Positions 1 to 18,303 of a stretch of DNA of 31,719 nt are shown in pieces (within the stretch, counting starts at the first letter, position 1; each line of letters starts with the position of its first letter). A program made the translations under genes and the position numbers. Where the stretch lies: positions 1 to 31,719 of IMG/VR virus record IMGVR_UViG_3300042939_000222. One strand, 5' to 3'. The DNA comes from a virus. The notes beneath the pieces were generated by a model. That model was not told the origin of the DNA and ran no database searches. It saw only the letters and a list, made by a program, of their open reading frames with translations.

Positions 1-429
1 AATAAAAAATACAATGTACATGATTATAAAGTAAATGGATTTATAGTCGACGGAATTAATTCTTTGGTACTAAGAGAGTCAAGTTTAGATGGAGGCGGTG
101 TTGGTTCAATAGGCGTAGGCGATATTTTAGTTAGTCCAAAGGGGTATCAGGGAAGAGTTGATAGTATTTCCACTACTTTACTGAATGGTTCACTTGTTGG
201 GACTGCAAGCATTTCTATAAGAACAGGAAATTTTGCTGTTAACGAAACAGTTTCAGTTTTAGGCGAAACAACATACGCTGAAGTGCAATCTTATTCAGTT
301 CCAGCCCAATACACCACAACGAGTAATTATGATTATGAATTCGCTTTAAACGAATCGAAACGTAGAATTAAGATTGTTGATCCTCAATTAGTCGAACAAT
401 TAGTTAAAGAGTTTGAAAATATTATATGA
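1..429 (+). CDS. 53: Baseplate wedge protein gp53-like, C-terminal part (5' truncated)
   Basis: The reading frame is open from base 1, so the gene starts upstream of the window; a TTG at 64 is not a convincing start because the frame reads through it. 142 codons are visible. The C-terminus has the pattern YEFALNESKRRIKIVDP followed by a short helix, which I associate with the ends of gp53-like wedge proteins in marine T4-like phages, where a LysM-like/beta part joins the wedge to the hub. The following hub, gp5 and PAAR genes fit this position. Its TGA stop overlaps the next ATG as ATGA, suggesting coupled translation. The identification rests on the C-terminal motif and gene order; another small wedge protein is possible. 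Confidence 0.62.
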   Translation, partial: NKKYNVHDYKVNGFIVDGINSLVLRESSLDGGGVGSIGVGDILVSPKGYQGRVDSISTTLLNGSLVGTASISIRTGNFAVNETVSVLGETTYAEVQSYSVPAQYTTTSNYDYEFALNESKRRIKIVDPQLVEQLVKEFENII

Positions 430-1709
430 ATAAGTTTCCAAACGAGGGAATTCGTTTTGCTGGCGACGTAAGTATACGTAAGCTAGAAATTGTTTCATCT
501 GCGAACTATAAAGTTAATATAACGAATCAACTCATTGGTATTGAAATATACGAAGATTTGTTTGCTCCTTTTACATCAATGATGATTACTGTTCGTGAAT
601 CGCTGGATCTGGTAAATGCTCTTCCACTAAGAGGTGAAGAGATATTAAACTTAGAAATTTCAACTCCAACTTTTAATGATGAGAACACATTCTTTAAAGG
701 GAAGTTTTACATTTACAAGATAAGCGATAGACAGATGCTTACAGATCGCAATGTAGTCTACACAATGAATTGTATTTCCTACGAAGCTTTAACTGATTTA
801 AATATAAAACAATCTAAATCTTATCAGGGAAACATAGGTGAAATTGCGACAAAGATCATAGGATCTGATGGCCTTGGCACAACTAAGAAAAGCAATGTAG
901 AAGCGACAAGAAATTCCATAAAATACATTTCAAACTTCTGGTCACCTATTAAAAATTTAAACTTTTTAGCAGAGTCTGCGGTGAACATTGATGGAAGTGC
1001 ATCTTATTTATTTTACGAAAATAGAAGCGGATTCAATTTCACCAGTTTAGATAAACTATATCAAGGCGATCCATATCAGAAGTTCATAAAAGATAATTAT
1101 GTTAGAGATACTTACGTGAATACTTCTATTCGAAATATAGAACGTGATTATCAAAGAATTTTAGATTTTAAAGTGCGTGTCCCATTTGATGCTATAAAGT
1201 TTACTAATGCAGGTGTCTACTCCTCTAGGCTATATTCGTACGATTTAGTTAAGAAAAAGTATTTAGCAAAAGACTACAACGCTCTTTCAAACTTTTCAAA
1301 AGACGTGCACTTGAACAAAACTGCAGTCTTTACCGACATGAAACCAGTGTCTCCGTTTAATTTCATATTCAACGAGATTAAGCACTATGGTAGTCACACT
1401 GGATACGCAGATACGAGTTCTGTAAATATAGATCAACAGCGTAAATCAAAATTAGGTTTACTGAAATCGTGTGTTGTGGAAATAAACGTATTTGGAAGAA
1501 CTGATTACACTGTAGGTCAAAAGGTGTATTTAGAAATGCCAAAGCCGGTTGTTATAACTGAAAAAGATCAAGCAAATGCAGATCCGCAGAATGGATTTAT
1601 CGATACGATGTATTCCGGATTTTACATAGTTACTGCGATAAATCACGTTATATCTCGTGAAAACCATACATGCATAATGGAACTTTCTAAAGATTCTAAA
1701 TTGGAGTAA
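426..1709 (+). CDS. 27: Baseplate hub protein, gp27-like
   Basis: This 427-residue protein is close in size to T4 gp27 (about 390 residues), which forms the trimeric torus joining the tail tube to gp5. The N-terminal beta region (SANYKVNITNQLIGIEIYED, then a stretch about active or contact segments such as MMITVRESLDLV) and the C-terminus ending VTAINHVISRENHTCIMEL are typical of hub proteins of the VgrG/gp27 D-domain type. It lies directly before gp5, the partner it would bind, whereas in T4 gene 27 is in another cluster, so two T4 clusters appear merged here. The start ATG overlaps the previous stop (ATGA). No enzymatic motif is seen. Hub function is inferred from fold-like pattern and context. 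Confidence 0.7.
   Translation: MNKFPNEGIRFAGDVSIRKLEIVSSANYKVNITNQLIGIEIYEDLFAPFTSMMITVRESLDLVNALPLRGEEILNLEISTPTFNDENTFFKGKFYIYKISDRQMLTDRNVVYTMNCISYEALTDLNIKQSKSYQGNIGEIATKIIGSDGLGTTKKSNVEATRNSIKYISNFWSPIKNLNFLAESAVNIDGSASYLFYENRSGFNFTSLDKLYQGDPYQKFIKDNYVRDTYVNTSIRNIERDYQRILDFKVRVPFDAIKFTNAGVYSSRLYSYDLVKKKYLAKDYNALSNFSKDVHLNKTAVFTDMKPVSPFNFIFNEIKHYGSHTGYADTSSVNIDQQRKSKLGLLKSCVVEINVFGRTDYTVGQKVYLEMPKPVVITEKDQANADPQNGFIDTMYSGFYIVTAINHVISRENHTCIMELSKDSKLE
1703..1706 (+). promoter_or_regulatory. Shine-Dalgarno site of gp5
   Basis: GGAG lies four bases before the ATG at 1711 and inside the last codons and stop of the hub gene. It supports the chosen gp5 start, which also begins exactly with the OB-fold. 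Confidence 0.6.
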
Positions 1710-1710
1710 T

Positions 1711-4206
1711 ATGTTATACGTTGGCGTTATTGAGGATCGCAATGATCCATTGAAACTCGGCAGATGCAAGGTCAGAGTCATAGGTTTGCACACTCACGAT
1801 GCTGCAAAATTACCTACAGTCGACTTACCTTGGGCTATACCAATGCAGCCAATTACTTCAGCGGCTATTTCAGGAATAGGATTTAGTCCATTAGGATTAG
1901 TTGAAGGAACTAGTGTTATCGTAATGTTTAGAGACGATGAAAAGCAATTCCCTATTATACTTGGTTCTATAGCTGGAATTCCTCAAAGCACATCGGCCGA
2001 TATCAATGCAGATGATTCGACTATTAGAATTAAAATTGACGGTGAATTAAAACAAGTTAACGAGCAGTCAAACGTATTACTTGACGGATCTGGAAATGCA
2101 GTAGTCGATAGCTCAGGCAATCCAGTTACAACATCACAAGAACCAGTAACTTTAGAAAACAACAATAAACTTAAGAGAGCTGTTGAATTCACTCCAAGTA
2201 AACAGTGCGTTGAGCTTATAAAGAGATTTGAAGGTTTAAGATTAGAAGCTTATCAAGATTCGGTAGGCATATGGACTATCGGATATGGAACTACACGAAT
2301 TAATGGAGTTCCAGTGCAACCCGGCATGGTCATAACACAAGCACAAGCAGAAGCATTTTTAGCAGAAGACCTTAAAGAATTTGTTCCAATCGTTCAACGT
2401 AATACAAGAGCTCTTATTACACAATCTATGTTTGATGCGCTTTGTTCTTTCACCTATAATCTAGGTGGAGGAAATTTATCTAAATCGACTTTGCTTAAAG
2501 ATTTAAATTCGAGTAAGTATCTCGATGCAGCTGCTGGATTTCTATTGTGGACTAAAGCAGGAGGAAGAGAGTTACTAGGACTCGTTCGAAGAAGATCTGC
2601 TGAAAAAGATTTGTTCTTATTAGAAGGAACACCTAATACTGCTGGTGAATTGCCAGTTCAGGAAACACAATCTGAACAAGCTCAAGTTATAACAAACAGT
2701 GTTGTTACACCTAGTGCAAATTCAAACAGCGAAGCAACACAGTCTGTTTCGAGCGTATTAGGATTTAGAGATCCTAATAGAAAATATCCTCTCTATTATG
2801 ATGAACCTGATACTAACCGATTAGCTCGTCACGAAGAAATTAATAAGACTATTGTATACAAAAAAGAAGCAGCACAGTTAAAAGGTGTTGAAGTTGCTGA
2901 CGGAAGTACTTGGGATCAACCTCCTATCCCATACAATGCGCAGTACCCCTTCAATCACGTGATGCAAACCGAGTCTGGACATATACTTGAATTTGACGAT
3001 ACGCCAAATAGTGAAAGAATCCATCTATATCATAAGTCTGGTACATTCACAGAAATAGACGCTAATGGAACACAGGTTAATCGTATTATCGGTGACGGAT
3101 ACGAAATCTTAGAAAGAAATGGATACGTACAAATAAACGGTTCTTTGAATGTTACCATTGACGGAGCGCATAATGTTCTAGTTAAAAATGCTTTGAACTT
3201 AAATGTTAATGGGCTAACAACAGTTAATATTTTCAATGATGCAATAATGAATGTAAGTGGAGATATGTCGCTGAGTGTAGGCGGAGCGTTTTCACTTAAA
3301 GCCAACTCAATTGCGCTAGAGAGCGATACAGCGATAAACGCACTTGCAGCTGGTGGCAACTTCAATATTGAAGCATCGGCCGAAGCAAGTGTTAAGGCGG
3401 GCGGTAATGCTAAACTAGATGGAAGTCAAGTACACTTGGGAATGGGTGCAAACTCCGCAGAAAATTCAGGCCTGGAAACACCGGCAGCGTCTAAAGAACC
3501 AGAGATGCCTGAATTTGGAAGCTTAACAGTTATAACACGAGGAGCTTCGGCGGGTGGTCAGTACGAAACACCCGAAGAAGGAGATCCAAGTGTGCATATT
3601 CAAAAGCAAATTAATAGTGGTGCCATAAAGAAAGAAGAAATGGATAGCGGTACTCAAGAAGATTCACAAGAGTTAGAGCCACCAGCAGTTTCTCAAGAAG
3701 AAAAGAGCTGTGACGCTATCTTTATGAAGTCTACGTTTGAACCTTCCTTTATCTTGTCTAAGAACTTTACTCTTGGTGCTCTCACTAAGAATGGAAGTCG
3801 ACCAATAATTGCACAGCAGGGTCTGAGTATTCAAGAAATTGTGTGTAACTTAAAAGGATTGTCTGAAAACTGTCTTGAACCTATTAGAAACTTGTATCCT
3901 AATATGGTAATCACTTCTGGATTTAGACGTCCTCAAGACGTAGCCAACTCTTCAAAAACTTCAGATCACTATCTTGGCTGTGCAGCTGACATCGTAATTC
4001 CTAATCTTGGTCGTCAGGGCCACTATGAAGCTATTCAGAAGATTCAACAATTAGTGCCGTATGACCAGTTATTATTAGAATACCAAGGTGCAAGCACTGT
4101 TTGGATACACGTATCGTTTAAATATAGCGGATCAAAAAAGCAGATCTTTACTATGCGTGATCATAGGAGAATCGGTGATTTTGGTCAATTCGTATTGGTA
4201 GCTTAA
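1711..4206 (+). CDS. 5: Baseplate hub/needle protein gp5 with lysozyme and C-terminal M15 peptidase domain
   Basis: This is the central spike that pierces the envelope and cuts peptidoglycan. Residues 1-90 form the OB-fold (MLYVGVIEDRNDPLKLGRC). Residues 166-303 are a T4-type lysozyme; E174, D183 and T189 keep the spacing of the T4 catalytic residues E11, D20 and T26. Residues 470-580 are short V-x-G type beta-helix repeats forming the needle. A polar, Glu/Gln-rich linker (590-668) leads to a domain at 715-810 with SDHYLGCAAD and WIHVSF, matching M15_3 zinc peptidases; H753, D760 and H800 would bind zinc and E790 may be catalytic. At 831 residues it is much longer than T4 gp5 (575). The start has a good ribosome binding site (GGAG, 1703-1706). 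The enzyme assignments are strong; the cleavage specificity of the peptidase is inferred. Confidence 0.92.
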   Translation: MLYVGVIEDRNDPLKLGRCKVRVIGLHTHDAAKLPTVDLPWAIPMQPITSAAISGIGFSPLGLVEGTSVIVMFRDDEKQFPIILGSIAGIPQSTSADINADDSTIRIKIDGELKQVNEQSNVLLDGSGNAVVDSSGNPVTTSQEPVTLENNNKLKRAVEFTPSKQCVELIKRFEGLRLEAYQDSVGIWTIGYGTTRINGVPVQPGMVITQAQAEAFLAEDLKEFVPIVQRNTRALITQSMFDALCSFTYNLGGGNLSKSTLLKDLNSSKYLDAAAGFLLWTKAGGRELLGLVRRRSAEKDLFLLEGTPNTAGELPVQETQSEQAQVITNSVVTPSANSNSEATQSVSSVLGFRDPNRKYPLYYDEPDTNRLARHEEINKTIVYKKEAAQLKGVEVADGSTWDQPPIPYNAQYPFNHVMQTESGHILEFDDTPNSERIHLYHKSGTFTEIDANGTQVNRIIGDGYEILERNGYVQINGSLNVTIDGAHNVLVKNALNLNVNGLTTVNIFNDAIMNVSGDMSLSVGGAFSLKANSIALESDTAINALAAGGNFNIEASAEASVKAGGNAKLDGSQVHLGMGANSAENSGLETPAASKEPEMPEFGSLTVITRGASAGGQYETPEEGDPSVHIQKQINSGAIKKEEMDSGTQEDSQELEPPAVSQEEKSCDAIFMKSTFEPSFILSKNFTLGALTKNGSRPIIAQQGLSIQEIVCNLKGLSENCLEPIRNLYPNMVITSGFRRPQDVANSSKTSDHYLGCAADIVIPNLGRQGHYEAIQKIQQLVPYDQLLLEYQGASTVWIHVSFKYSGSKKQIFTMRDHRRIGDFGQFVLVA

Positions 4207-4535: not shown

Positions 4536-4928
4536 ATGGCTAAAAATACTCGCACATTTTCAGATATAGACATGGCATTTCTTGCAAATCCCGTGTCTAA
4601 AGACATTTATAAGAAATATGACGAGAATGCTATCAAGCAATCTATAAAAAATTTAATTTTGACTAAAAACTTCGAAAGACCGTTTCGAAGTGACATAGGA
4701 TCTCAAATATCTTCATTATTATTTGAACCGATAACCCCAGTACTTAGAGCTACAATAAAGAAGACGATAACAAACACTATTATATCATACGAACCTAGGG
4801 TAAATTTATTAAGCGTAGAGGTCCTATTGAGTCCGGACAATAATGGAGTTTATGTTACTATAGTTTTTAGTATCGTAAATACGAGTACACCGATAAGTGT
4901 TGACTTATTCTTAGAAAGAACTCGATAA
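4536..4928 (+). CDS. 25: Baseplate wedge protein gp25
   Basis: A 130-residue protein of the GPW/gp25 family, as in T4 (132 residues). The family pattern is clear from about residue 45: RPFRSDIGSQISSLLFEP, followed by a helix (ATIKKTITNTI) and YEPRVNLLSVEV, then a beta strand end. The protein has lysozyme-like fold relatives in other contractile systems but no catalytic role; it helps lock the inner wedge and starts sheath assembly. In T4 gene 25 is far from gene 6, but here it directly precedes it with a TAATG overlap. Confidence 0.92.
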   Translation: MAKNTRTFSDIDMAFLANPVSKDIYKKYDENAIKQSIKNLILTKNFERPFRSDIGSQISSLLFEPITPVLRATIKKTITNTIISYEPRVNLLSVEVLLSPDNNGVYVTIVFSIVNTSTPISVDLFLERTR

Positions 4929-12717: not shown

Positions 12718-15700
12718 ATGGCACTAAATTTCAATATTGAACCGTTTTTCGACGACTATTCTGAAAACAAGAAATTCTATAGAATTTTATTTCGTCCTGG
12801 TTATGCTGTTCAAGCACGAGAGCTAACACAGCTTCAAACAATACTACAGCAACAAATTAAGCGTCATGGCGACCATATGTTCAAAAATGGTGCTATGATT
12901 ATTCCAGGTCAAATCTCATATGATTCAAATACTGCATATGTAAAAGTTGGTGCTACAATTTCTGGATCATCAGTTAGTACGTTTTCGGTACTATCGAACG
13001 TAAATGGAAAAATATATAGAGGTCAGACTTCTAATGTTGAAGCTCTTGTTCTTACTTCCACTCCTCTCGAAGTAATTAATAATACCAGTGAAGCCAATAC
13101 ATTATTTGTCAAATACATACGTGGAACTGGCACATTTAACACAGGTGAAATCATTTCTCCAGTTGATGGATCGACTGGGTTAGACTTAACTGTACAAAGT
13201 ACTGATTCACCTTTAGGTTATGGTACTACAGCTACAATACAAGAAGGCGTTTATTATATCAAAAACCATTTTGTGTTTGTTGAAGCACAGACAATTGTAG
13301 TTGCGAAATATAGTAAAATCCCAAGCGCTAAAGTTGGTCTTCAAGTTAATGAAAGTGTTGTATATCCCGAAGACGACGAAAGTTTATTAGATAATGCTTT
13401 AGGATCTCCAAATTATGCAGCTCCTGGTGCTGCACGTTATTCTATTGAATTGAAACTAACAAGTAAAAGCTATGATTCTACTGTAGATGCAGATGAATTC
13501 ATTACACTTCTTACACTGAAAGAAGGCGATGTACAATTCTTAGTTGATAAAACACAATACGCCGAATTAGAGAAAACTCTTGCTCGAAGAACCTACGATG
13601 AATCGGGTGATTACACTGTACGAGATTTTCCTATAGAATTGCGTGAATATCGCAACAATGATAGAGGCGCTTGGACTGCAGCAAAGTATTATCTCAAAGG
13701 AGATATTGTTACTAATGCGAGTAAGACATACAAAGCTAAGTCATCGCATACGTCTAGCGCAGCGTTTGCCACAGACACGAACAATTGGTTAGAAGATACA
13801 AGTCCTTCATATAACTATGGACTATATCAAGGTCCTACTGCAATTGCAACTGGTGTAACAGCAGAGAACATTTCAGATCTGACCACGAAAGTTTCACTCG
13901 CTATTGAGCCTGGTAAAGCGTATGTTCGTGGATATGAAATCGAAAAAATAGTTACTCAATATTTGACTCTCGATAAAGCACGAACAACTTCAAATTACGA
14001 ATTAAGAAGTGTTGATACTAGTCCTGGCAATTATATTATTATTAAAAACACAAATTATCTACCAGACATTAACACAGACGTCACATTCTATGATAGATAC
14101 GGCAGTGCAGGCCAAGTACCTGCATCTGGTGAAATAGTCGCAACAGCTCGTATAAAACAAATACAATTACACTCGTCTGATACGAGTGGAAATCCTGTAA
14201 GTTACAAAGTATTCCTATTTAGACTTATTGTTAGTTCTGGTAAAGATTTTACTAGAGATGCAAAATACTTATACTCAATTACTGGTAATAGTGCGGCAAA
14301 TAGATTTAGCGGAAGAATAGTTCCAACTCTAATTCAGTTAACTGGATCTCTTGCGGCTTCAAGTACAGGTACAATAACAGGCGTTAATACAACCTTTACA
14401 CAAGATTTAAAAGTTGGAGACTATGTTTCTATAAATTCAACTGAGTATAGAGTAACTACAGTAACTGATAATGATACTATTGTTATCGATGGTACACCAA
14501 CTATTAGTGCAGGCACTTTTATTTACAGAGTAGCTGCAACAATCAATAGTCCAAATAGATTGACGTCTTATTTCGAATTCCCCGCTTATGCCGTAAAAAG
14601 TACTCAGAATGCTAAGTATTCTTTTTATAAGAGATACCAAACATCTAGCGGAGCATCGACAGCAACTCTGACAGAAACCTCATATGTTTTTGGTGTTCAA
14701 ACTGATTCTCGCAATTATATAGTTATCAATAAAGCCGACGGAACACATCAAAAATATATCTCTACTGGAACGCCTAGTGCTGGTGAATATAAAATTTCTG
14801 GTGATGGAACAGCCAATGTTACGTTTACATTTGGTGCTGCGTCTACATACGAAATAATTGCAAATTTACGTAGAACAAACACAGCATCATTACTTAAGCG
14901 TACTAAAACTCTTAAGAATAATACAGAAACAAACAAAGCACTTACAAACGGCGCATTGACTTTAGCGTTTGCGGATGGATTCGAACTAATTTCTGTTACT
15001 ACTGGAACTTTTGCAAATAACACTTGGACAGCTAGTGCTGATGTAACATCAAAATTTAGATTTGACAATGGCGTTCGCAGTTCTCACTACGAATTAGCTT
15101 CAATATCATTACTTCCAGGACAAAGTATTACTGGAAATATTCAAGTCACTTATAGTTATTTTGAACAAGGCACTTCTAATGATTTCTATGTAGTTGACTC
15201 TTATCAAGATATAACTTACGAAGAATTGCCAGCTGATAGAGCGAATATACTTGATTTTCGTCCTGTGATTGATACATCAGGACAATTTTCGTCTATCATA
15301 ACTCCAAAGTTTGGAGAAGAGACCGATATTGAGTATGATTATTATCTCCCACGAATTGATAAACTTTCTATTACAACAACCGGCGATTATATCATTACAA
15401 AAGGTATTCCCGGTGTAAATCCTAAAGTTCCAGAATCTCCAAATGATTCAATGGACCTCTACACGTTTAGTGTAGAACCTTATACATTCAGTGGCAATGC
15501 TTCAAGCGTAATTCCTTCGAAGATAGAAAATAAACGCTACACAATGCGAGATATTGGCAAGTTAGAAAATCGCATTAATAATTTGGAGTACTACGCCACT
15601 CTATCTCTATTAGAGCAAAACACGATTAACTATAAAGCGTATGATGACTTTGGTTTAGAGCGTCCTCAGAATGGTTTTATAGTAGATGACTTCACTGGTC

Positions 15701-18303
15701 AAGGTGTTGGAAATGTTCTATCAGCAGACTGGAGAGCTTCGGTTGATAGTAGATCTGGCGAACTTAGACCATTCTTCAAAACCGCGAATATTGCTCTATT
15801 AGAAAAAACGACTAATTTTAATAGAACAAACTTAAATTACGAAGTTAATGGAGACTTAGCAACTCTTAAAATTGCAAGCAAAGTTCCTTTAGTATCTCAA
15901 CTTCGTGCTTCACATAACGAATCAGTCAATCCATTTAATATATTCGTATTCAATGGAAGCTTAGAAATCATCCCTTGGAACGATGATTGGATCGAAGTTA
16001 ACCGCCGACCAGACATCGTTATAAATGATACTAAACAGTACGATGCTGTAGTGGCAAAAGCAGAAGCTGACGGTGTTCTTGGAACAGTTTATAAATCTTG
16101 GTCTATTAACTGGGGCGGTGAGACTGTAGTGTCTAGTCAAACCCTCTCTGCTGATCGTCGTTTTGGCGACGGAGGATCTGCTCTCGATGCTGAGTTTGGA
16201 ATAGGACCTGAAGCAGAAGGTTGGGCGTTTAGACAGATAGGAGTTGAAACTGTTGCTCGAAATGGTACTAAGACTTACACTGGTGGCACAAGCACGTTTA
16301 TTAAGTCAACTGTTACTGACACGACAATTGGCGATAAAGTAGTTAGTACAGAACTAATTCCGTATATCCGTAAGCGCAAAATCTTATTTAGAGGCGAGAG
16401 TCTAAAACCAAATACCAGAATATATGCTTTCTTTGATGATATAAACGTTGATAGCCACATTACTCCTGCTAAGAAGATGGCTTTTGTTCCACGCGGAACT
16501 ACTGTTGTACCTACGTTTGAAATTGACATTAATGTAGGTTCAAACGTCAATAATGCCGAACGTAAGACTTCAGATGGAAATATTTCAACGGCTTACTTAT
16601 ACGGCGAAGTTTTAAAAGAGTATAGAATTGATGTATCAGTTACTCCGAATATAACAACTGCTACAGGCGCTTCGTGCGTAGTAGTAGGACAAGAGACTTA
16701 CGGTGGCACTAATTATGTTTATATTGACAATTTAAAAGGTCCAGCATTTTCAAGCGATACTACTCAGTATCAATATTATTTGGAAGCTGAATTTAATTCA
16801 GCGCGACAAATTAAAAAAGTTGGAAGTGTAATTACACCTTCTCAGTTAATGACAACTGACACTGGTCAATTACTTGGAACTTTCGATATTCCTAGTACGA
16901 CACAGATGCGCTTTAGAACTGGAACCCGTAATCTTCGCTTTACAGATGATGTTGCTAACATACGTTCAAATTCTTCAACTTCTGCTGAAGCAACATATAC
17001 TGCTAGAGGTGTTTTAGAAACTCGTGAAAGAACTATTCTTTCAACTAAGACAGCTGAAGTTGTTACAGAAAGAATTCCTGATAGAACTGAAGCGATTGTT
17101 GAAACAAGACGCCGCGTTGTTTCTGACACTGGTTGGTATGATCCATTAGCGCAAACATTCTTAGTGGATTTAGAAGGTGGAGCTTTTGTCACTGATGTTG
17201 ATTTATATTTCTCAGCAAAAGATACTAATGTTCCTGTAAAGATACATATTCGAAATGTTGTCAATGGTTATCCAGGACCTTCTATCGTTCCATTCTCTGA
17301 AGTAATATTACAACCAAGCGAAGTAAACACGAGTGCTAATGGCACAGTGGTGACTAAATTTAAATTTAGAAGTCCAGTTTATCTACAAAATGGTAGTGAG
17401 TATGCTTTAGTTATTATCTCTGATTCTGCAAAATATCGTGTTTGGATTGCACAATCCGGTTCTCTCGATATAAATGGATCTGGATTAATTTCTACTCAAC
17501 CATATGCTGGTGTATTGTTTAAATCTCAAAACGCATCAACATGGACAGCTGAGCAAAATCAAGACTTAAAGTTTGTCATCAATAGAGCAGTATTTAATAC
17601 AGGCAGCACTGCAACAATGACACTAGTAAATCAACACGTAAGTGAAGATTTCAATTATGATCTTGCAAACGTTAATGTGAATAGAATAGTTCTTCCTGAT
17701 ACTCAGCTAACTGCAAAACTTTCATATAATAGTTCATCTAGCACTATTAACTTGAATGAAGATGTTCTACTAACTTCACCACGTGTGCTTAAAGACAGTG
17801 TTGAAGAAGCCGGAACTTCATCATTTCAATCCGTTATTGAGTTTTCTTCAAGTAGAAGCAATATCTCTCCAGTGATCGATCTAAGTCGTTGTTCAGCTGT
17901 GTTAGTGGGTAACTCAATAAGTCTAGATGAAACGAATGAAATATATCCTGAAAGAGGAAGTGCACTTGCGAAATACGTGACAAAGCTCATTAGACTGAAT
18001 ACTCCTTCAACAAATCTTCGTATATTGTTCGATGCGAACGTTCCAAACGAAGGCTTCATTGATTTGTACTATAGAACTGGTTTGCAATCGAGCGATTTCT
18101 CTTCATCTAATTACACAAAAATTACTTCAGCTTTCTATGCTAAGCCAGTAAGAAAGACTGATAAATATCGTCAGTTCTTTGAAGTAGAAGCTAAACTAGA
18201 TCTACCACAGTTTGATATTATGCAAGCAAAGATTGTTCTAAGATCGAGCAATACATCTAAAGTTCCACGTGTTAAAGCGCTGAGAGTTATAGCGTATGCA
18301 TAA
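12718..18303 (+). CDS. DUF4815 baseplate/tail structural protein (positional counterpart of gp10)
   Basis: At 1861 residues this is the largest complete protein here. Its start (NFNIEPFFDDY, then FRPGYAVQARELTQLQTILQ and GDHMFKNGAMIIPGQ) is the DUF4815 signature found in marine T4-like phages. Residues about 318-362 resemble a CBM5/12-like module (aromatic-rich YYLKGDIVTNASKTYKAKSS, ending NNWLED). Residues about 540-610 form a small beta domain (GTITGVNTTFTQDLKVGDYV). Residues about 1472-1600 (DPLAQTFLVDLEGGAFVTDV, then VNGYPGPSIVPFSEV and VYLQNGSEYALVI) form a conserved beta sandwich. It follows gp8, where T4 has gp9 and gp10, so it may connect wedges to fibers. The family match is firm; the exact role is inferred. 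A weak AAGAG lies before the ATG. Confidence 0.8.
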   Translation: MALNFNIEPFFDDYSENKKFYRILFRPGYAVQARELTQLQTILQQQIKRHGDHMFKNGAMIIPGQISYDSNTAYVKVGATISGSSVSTFSVLSNVNGKIYRGQTSNVEALVLTSTPLEVINNTSEANTLFVKYIRGTGTFNTGEIISPVDGSTGLDLTVQSTDSPLGYGTTATIQEGVYYIKNHFVFVEAQTIVVAKYSKIPSAKVGLQVNESVVYPEDDESLLDNALGSPNYAAPGAARYSIELKLTSKSYDSTVDADEFITLLTLKEGDVQFLVDKTQYAELEKTLARRTYDESGDYTVRDFPIELREYRNNDRGAWTAAKYYLKGDIVTNASKTYKAKSSHTSSAAFATDTNNWLEDTSPSYNYGLYQGPTAIATGVTAENISDLTTKVSLAIEPGKAYVRGYEIEKIVTQYLTLDKARTTSNYELRSVDTSPGNYIIIKNTNYLPDINTDVTFYDRYGSAGQVPASGEIVATARIKQIQLHSSDTSGNPVSYKVFLFRLIVSSGKDFTRDAKYLYSITGNSAANRFSGRIVPTLIQLTGSLAASSTGTITGVNTTFTQDLKVGDYVSINSTEYRVTTVTDNDTIVIDGTPTISAGTFIYRVAATINSPNRLTSYFEFPAYAVKSTQNAKYSFYKRYQTSSGASTATLTETSYVFGVQTDSRNYIVINKADGTHQKYISTGTPSAGEYKISGDGTANVTFTFGAASTYEIIANLRRTNTASLLKRTKTLKNNTETNKALTNGALTLAFADGFELISVTTGTFANNTWTASADVTSKFRFDNGVRSSHYELASISLLPGQSITGNIQVTYSYFEQGTSNDFYVVDSYQDITYEELPADRANILDFRPVIDTSGQFSSIITPKFGEETDIEYDYYLPRIDKLSITTTGDYIITKGIPGVNPKVPESPNDSMDLYTFSVEPYTFSGNASSVIPSKIENKRYTMRDIGKLENRINNLEYYATLSLLEQNTINYKAYDDFGLERPQNGFIVDDFTGQGVGNVLSADWRASVDSRSGELRPFFKTANIALLEKTTNFNRTNLNYEVNGDLATLKIASKVPLVSQLRASHNESVNPFNIFVFNGSLEIIPWNDDWIEVNRRPDIVINDTKQYDAVVAKAEADGVLGTVYKSWSINWGGETVVSSQTLSADRRFGDGGSALDAEFGIGPEAEGWAFRQIGVETVARNGTKTYTGGTSTFIKSTVTDTTIGDKVVSTELIPYIRKRKILFRGESLKPNTRIYAFFDDINVDSHITPAKKMAFVPRGTTVVPTFEIDINVGSNVNNAERKTSDGNISTAYLYGEVLKEYRIDVSVTPNITTATGASCVVVGQETYGGTNYVYIDNLKGPAFSSDTTQYQYYLEAEFNSARQIKKVGSVITPSQLMTTDTGQLLGTFDIPSTTQMRFRTGTRNLRFTDDVANIRSNSSTSAEATYTARGVLETRERTILSTKTAEVVTERIPDRTEAIVETRRRVVSDTGWYDPLAQTFLVDLEGGAFVTDVDLYFSAKDTNVPVKIHIRNVVNGYPGPSIVPFSEVILQPSEVNTSANGTVVTKFKFRSPVYLQNGSEYALVIISDSAKYRVWIAQSGSLDINGSGLISTQPYAGVLFKSQNASTWTAEQNQDLKFVINRAVFNTGSTATMTLVNQHVSEDFNYDLANVNVNRIVLPDTQLTAKLSYNSSSSTINLNEDVLLTSPRVLKDSVEEAGTSSFQSVIEFSSSRSNISPVIDLSRCSAVLVGNSISLDETNEIYPERGSALAKYVTKLIRLNTPSTNLRILFDANVPNEGFIDLYYRTGLQSSDFSSSNYTKITSAFYAKPVRKTDKYRQFFEVEAKLDLPQFDIMQAKIVLRSSNTSKVPRVKALRVIAYA

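Follow-up and report, generated by a model that had tools for sequence, protein, structure and literature searches.

Organisation of the gp5 locus

The window analysed in this study is the entire virus record IMGVR_UViG_3300042939_000222 (31,719 bases), and the record is a fragment. The gene of the baseplate hub and needle protein gp5 is located between an upstream tail protein gene and the genes of a PAAR tip protein and a gp25-like baseplate wedge subunit (Table 1). The order of domains along gp5 is OB fold, GH24 muramidase, β-helix, linker and M15 peptidase. The protein matched the T4 gp5 entry 1pdl at E = 5.5e-46 (phmmer), and it shares with T4 gp5 the Gp5 OB domain and a GH24 domain with the E/D/T catalytic triad. 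The β-helical needle was recognised from phrog_430 and from an alignment to the first part of the T4 gp5 needle (E about 3e-14); the Pfam family Gp5_trimer_C remained below its cut-off. By homology to T4 gp5, the protein would form a trimeric needle. The PAAR protein is encoded by a separate gene whose ORF starts one base past the gp5 stop codon, and its PAAR repeat was recognised via phrog_281, with Pfam PAAR_motif at 16.2 bits and below its cut-off. The gp27-like reading of the upstream gene is based on its position and on the annotation of phage phiM12.

The initial annotation had placed both a muramidase and a C-terminal M15 zinc peptidase on gp5, and the sequence and the models agree with it. 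All of the residues it listed (E174, D183, T189, H753, D760 and H800) were at the exact positions when checked on ORF 1711-4206. The location of the peptidase after the β-helix and a linker was also retained; the linker length was revised from 80 to about 89 residues, with the helix ending near residue 577 and the M15 domain starting at C667.

Two further ORFs were noted. A 1861-aa ORF at 12718-18303, which matches phrog_358 (unknown function), lies inside the baseplate and tail fibre cluster. Many relatives (L013:2412-2960, and also L020, L023, L028, L031, L071, L073, L086 and L090) have an ORF of approximately 175-200 aa that separates gp5-M15 from PAAR; this ORF is absent from the window.

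Table 1. Features of the spike locus in the window (positions on the 31,719-base record)
Feature	Position	Strand	Evidence
Upstream tail protein, at the position of a gp27-like hub protein	426..1709	+	phrog_350 tail protein, E=1.1e-74
gp5 (831 aa), hub and needle protein of the baseplate	1711..4206	+	phrog_430, E=1.1e-98
OB domain, N-terminal, residues 1-105	1711..2025	+	Gp5_OB, E=4.1e-25
GH24 muramidase, residues 161-303 (E174, D183, T189)	2191..2619	+	Phage_lysozyme (Pfam), E=2.3e-42
Triple β-helix needle, residues 393-577 (approximate end)	2887..3441	+	T4 gp5 needle alignment; domain survey
Acidic and polar linker, residues 578-666, with predicted disorder	3442..3708	+	pLDDT; dN
Linker motif LTVITRG..YETPEEGD, residues 605-625	3523..3585	+	39 full-length gp5
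M15 zinc peptidase domain, residues 667-831	3709..4203	+	phrog_894, E=1.2e-17; fold match to 1lbu
R739, SGFR motif	3925..3927	+	Invariant, 64/64 relatives
Zinc ligand motif H753-x6-D760	3967..3990	+	64/64 relatives
E790, proposed general base	4078..4080	+	64/64 relatives; aligned with Glu177 of Sonic hedgehog
H800, third zinc ligand	4108..4110	+	63/64 relatives; missing only in L030 (M15 end deleted)
PAAR tip protein, 104 aa	4208..4522	+	phrog_281, E=9.4e-16; NF033420, E=1.9e-6, below cut-off
gp25-like baseplate wedge subunit	4536..4928	+	phrog_261, E=2.7e-48

Detection and active site of the M15 domain

The Pfam family Peptidase_M15_3 scored 15.5 bits on gp5 against a cut-off of 23.2, and Pfam alone would therefore miss the domain. 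This cut-off is a threshold rather than a structural feature, and 17 of 28 relatives matched Peptidase_M15_3 at E ≤ 0.01. The domain was detected by phrog_894, a family annotated as 'endolysin', and an AlphaFold model of residues 614-831 reached pLDDT >90 across most of it. The best solved match of this model was 1lbu, the Zn DD-carboxypeptidase of Streptomyces albus G (VIA Z 13.1, rmsd 2.6 Å over 126 residues), which is an M15 fold. Because the PHROG match (E = 1e-17) and the model converge, we regard the M15 assignment as secure despite the sub-threshold Pfam score. The enzyme 1lbu is a secreted bacterial protein with 18% identity over the aligned part and is not phage-borne. Searching the M15 sequence alone against solved structures returned chance matches only.

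The zinc ligand arrangement H-x6-D ... H is present in the domain as H753, D760 and H800. Loss of these ligands, which the initial annotation had named as evidence against a peptidase, was looked for in the alignment, where the full set is kept in 63 of 64 relatives. R739 and E790 had not been listed there and are also invariant, and G756 and A758 are likewise unchanged in each of the 64 distinct relatives. The one exception at H800 (L030:3519-6446) carries an in-frame deletion after VPYD that removes the M15 end and fuses gp5 with the ORF that follows; its M15 domain is 93% identical up to the break, and the deletion may be an assembly error. C667 (3709-3711), or a nearby cysteine, and C712 (3844-3846) are found together in 61 of the 64 sequences, and two sequences lack both; this joint presence or absence suggests a C667-C712 disulfide.

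The completeness of the active site also bears on whether the domain is an enzyme at all. Hedgehog proteins share the M15 fold and are usually assumed to be non-catalytic, and by analogy the domain could be a zinc-stabilised binding or structural module that binds the wall or a host protein and guides the needle. Hedgehogs were the first hits when the M15 profile was compared with solved structures, and they were the second-best fold matches (Z about 7, well behind 1lbu). Such a module is nevertheless unlikely, given that the entire R/H/D/E/H set is invariant, which mere binding does not need, that the closest fold is a hydrolase and that the sister clade consists of phage endolysins. In the profile alignment, E790 is aligned with Glu177 of Sonic hedgehog, a residue proposed as proton acceptor (PMC4102407), and E790 may on this basis serve as the general base of a catalytic M15 domain.

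Linker and tethering of the M15 domains

The linker had pLDDT <50 at residues 614-660 in the domain model and at residues 566-623 in the full-length gp5 model, in which a weak helix was predicted at residues 626-636. Its dN was the highest of the five gp5 parts in most pairwise comparisons. Since the linker is predicted to be disordered and, in most comparisons, changes faster than the domains do, the three M15 domains of the predicted trimer probably hang on tethers at the tip instead of packing there. We estimate that the fully extended 89-residue linker spans roughly 30 nm, and with such a reach there would be no need for the three M15 domains to be packed next to PAAR.

Part of the linker is conserved. 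Among 39 full-length gp5 proteins, residues L605, R610, E619, T620, P621 and G624 of the motif in Table 1 were invariant or kept in ≥90% of sequences. The motif gained no confidence in either monomer model, and a docking partner, if any, would thus be located elsewhere.

Muramidase loss and constraint on the M15 domain

The N-terminal lobe of GH24, which carries E, D and T, is deleted and the C-terminal lobe is left in seven contigs (L040, L043/L044, L048/L049, L141 and L147), representing five distinct sequences and near-copies. A strict motif search had flagged 12 GH24 domains without the triad, of which L143, L145, L151 and L161 on inspection keep E and D. The GH24 of L148 is changed at D and T and does not belong to the lobe deletions. 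Monophyly of the lobe-deleted sequences was rejected both for 24 rows (p=0.001) and for 53 rows (p=0.024, three changes), which points to at least two loss events, or to one loss followed by regain.

Measured in two pairs, dN/dS of the GH24 remnant was 0.39-0.57 and its dN 0.50-0.75; for the M15 domain, dN was 0.14-0.20 and dN/dS about 0.07 where dS was estimable. The M15 dN/dS was 0.04 relative to the nearest diverged relative, and M15 had the lowest dN among the gp5 domains in five of six pairs. A second GH24 was not seen on the L040, L043, L044, L048 and L049 contigs, which are fragments of 11-33 kb. Because the remnant drifts while M15 stays under strong purifying selection, and no other GH24 is found on these contigs, the M15 domain is retained on needles that have no active muramidase. 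Judging from the relatives, it would be the tip enzyme that persists when the other enzyme is lost or swapped.

Distribution and descent of spike M15 domains

In a tblastn search, 119 phage records matched M15 at E ≤ 1e-5, most of them not gp5, and 4034 phage records matched gp5; most of the related phages examined are without M15. Two viral-contig scans returned about 80 loci each, and one pattern yielded 230 related stretches in IMG/VR. The initial annotation had proposed a survey of gp5 relatives for M15, and among 97 distinct M15-bearing ORFs in the fetched loci, 40 had the full OB-GH24-needle-M15 order and 8 were PAAR-M15 fusions. The slot between the OB fold and the needle was occupied by GH24, GH19, Phage_lysozyme2, VanY or unidentified domains, or by none. 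The slot domains of L071, L077 and L088 (approximately 330-500 aa) had PHROG matches only to families of unknown function or, weakly, to endolysins. A spike-like M15 ORF (L095:3659-4540) was also observed in a 735-kb uncultured phage genome. A related copy in a host genome was searched for in genome contigs, and none was found. A cyanobacterial host was considered and is not supported, as no psbA/psbD family match was found in 13 related records.

A tree built from 39 M15 domains separated the endolysin-type M15s from the spike M15s with support of 100/99. The free-standing M15 relatives are endolysin-type peptidases, two of which adjoin holins. The PAAR-fused M15s formed one clade (100/100) nested in the gp5-fused M15s, next to pf16, Melnitz and Cr30, and a single clade of gp5-fused M15s was rejected (p=0.03). 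The simplest reading of this tree is one move of M15 from the needle end to the cap; because the PAAR-M15s nest inside the gp5-M15s, the tip position was kept while the carrier changed.

Entry, lysis or maturation

Six related contigs of 118-169 kb were examined for other wall enzymes. Each of them had one GH24, that in gp5. No M15_3 was found outside the gp5 frame in the six contigs, with no Pfam hit at all in two of them, and M15_4 and Amidase_2 had no match in any of the six. A separate GH19 frame of 208-216 aa was present in five of the six contigs (one below the cut-off). This frame is the likelier endolysin, and gp5 is therefore left for entry, the process in which T4 gp5 acts (PMC7650644).

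The same frames argue against gp5 with its two enzymes being the endolysin of the phage, either for lysis at the end of infection or for lysis from without. The 'endolysin' name of the PHROG family and the ability of overexpressed free T4 gp5 to lyse cells (PMC7650644) would fit such a role, which is very unlikely given the small GH19 frame of endolysin size in five of the six contigs, and given that nearly all spike relatives have M15 fused to the needle or to the PAAR cap. This distribution of carriers is likewise difficult to reconcile with the M15 domain being a maturation protease that processes gp5, a role we consider extremely improbable, since M15 domains are found on PAAR as well, apart from gp5. 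Moreover, the typical substrates of M15 enzymes are wall peptides containing D-amino acids. T4 gp5 is indeed cleaved in the linker between lysozyme and needle (PMC7650644), yet this occurs without an M15 domain.

Discussion

The spike described here resembles that of T4, in which gp5 and the gp5.4 PAAR tip also provide the OB fold, GH24, β-helix needle and a separate PAAR protein. T4 gp5 ends at the needle, whereas the window gp5 adds the linker of about 89 residues and the M15 domain. A C-terminal M15 behind needle and linker, with all catalytic residues kept, is also present in gp5 of Methylophilales phage Melnitz, Caulobacter phage Cr30, Pseudomonas phage pf16 and Synechococcus phage BUCT-ZZ01. 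Instead of GH24, their OB-needle slot holds VanY (Melnitz), Phage_lysozyme2 (Cr30), nothing (pf16) or GH19 (BUCT-ZZ01). In Melnitz phages, gp5 is split into two ORFs, OB-VanY and needle-M15 (L002:1922-4965), and their spike may be served by two peptidases of the wider M15 group. The deposited product names of these four phages do not mention M15. Proteins of the gp5-M15 type are already deposited, some under gp5 names, and no papers on M15 in T4 gp5 were found in the literature searched, the coverage of which was incomplete.

The PAAR-M15 fusions of Pseudomonas phages PA5oct, Milchi and Voja-6 and Vibrio phage 1.244.A belong to the same spike M15 clade and have the same place, with M15 behind a long linker that is proline-rich in several. 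With the PAAR cap as carrier, one M15 copy per needle is expected, in contrast to three here. The PA5oct record notes a muramoyl-pentapeptidase and its detection by mass spectrometry. In Sinorhizobium phage phiM12, a peptidase M15 ORF is found beside gp5 in the baseplate cluster as a separate ORF of 520 aa, and its gp5 (L091:4057-7235) has a muramidase-like domain, annotated COG4678, after the needle in the place of M15 here. The diffocin hub-hydrolase CD1368 likewise unites glycan-cutting and peptide-cutting enzymes at the tip of a contractile tail (PMC10996793), but these are a lytic transglycosylase and NlpC/P60, borne on the hub and directed at a Gram-positive wall. The diffocin tip is a structural precedent for two blades, built from unrelated enzymes.

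Taken together, we consider it quite probable that gp5 is a needle with two peptidoglycan hydrolases, GH24 beside the needle and tethered M15 domains at the tip, acting in entry. The M15 domain is probably the tip endopeptidase that cuts peptide crosslinks, and glycan and peptide cutting at one place, as the initial annotation had proposed, is the likeliest outcome indicated by sequence and models. In the proposed mechanism, the muramidase would sit beside the needle, and three M15 domains would hang from the tip on disordered linkers, next to the PAAR cap. Sheath contraction would drive the needle across the outer membrane. The M15 domains would be the first to meet the wall, where they would cleave peptide crosslinks; as the needle follows, glycan strands would be cut by the muramidase, producing a hole for the tube. 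The domain order, the catalytic residues, the fold, the selection and the retained position among relatives are shown by the data above; enzymatic activity, bound zinc and the timing of M15 action are predicted components of this mechanism. By similarity to 1lbu only, the bond cut would most likely be the D-Ala-mDAP crosslink, with L-Ala-D-Glu as a possible target.

A further proposal, which we put forward tentatively and hold to be rather doubtful, is that the tip M15 is the main wall opener. It would represent a spike-specific lineage kept at the tip through the carrier change from gp5 to PAAR, with the second slot freely swapped or lost, and YETPEEGD would hold M15 docked while the baseplate is at rest and free it upon contraction.

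Strong gp5 divergence has been described in pelagimyophages and tied to host walls (PMC7029224). Descriptions of the enzymes at the tail tip of T4-like phages usually mention a single lysozyme, and the two-enzyme needle, hidden from Pfam by its cut-off, is widespread in uncultured phages. The exchanges in both enzyme slots and the natural losses of the muramidase provide comparisons for determining which bond must be cut for DNA passage through the Gram-negative wall, and the tethered tip domain may be a source of wall-active peptidases.
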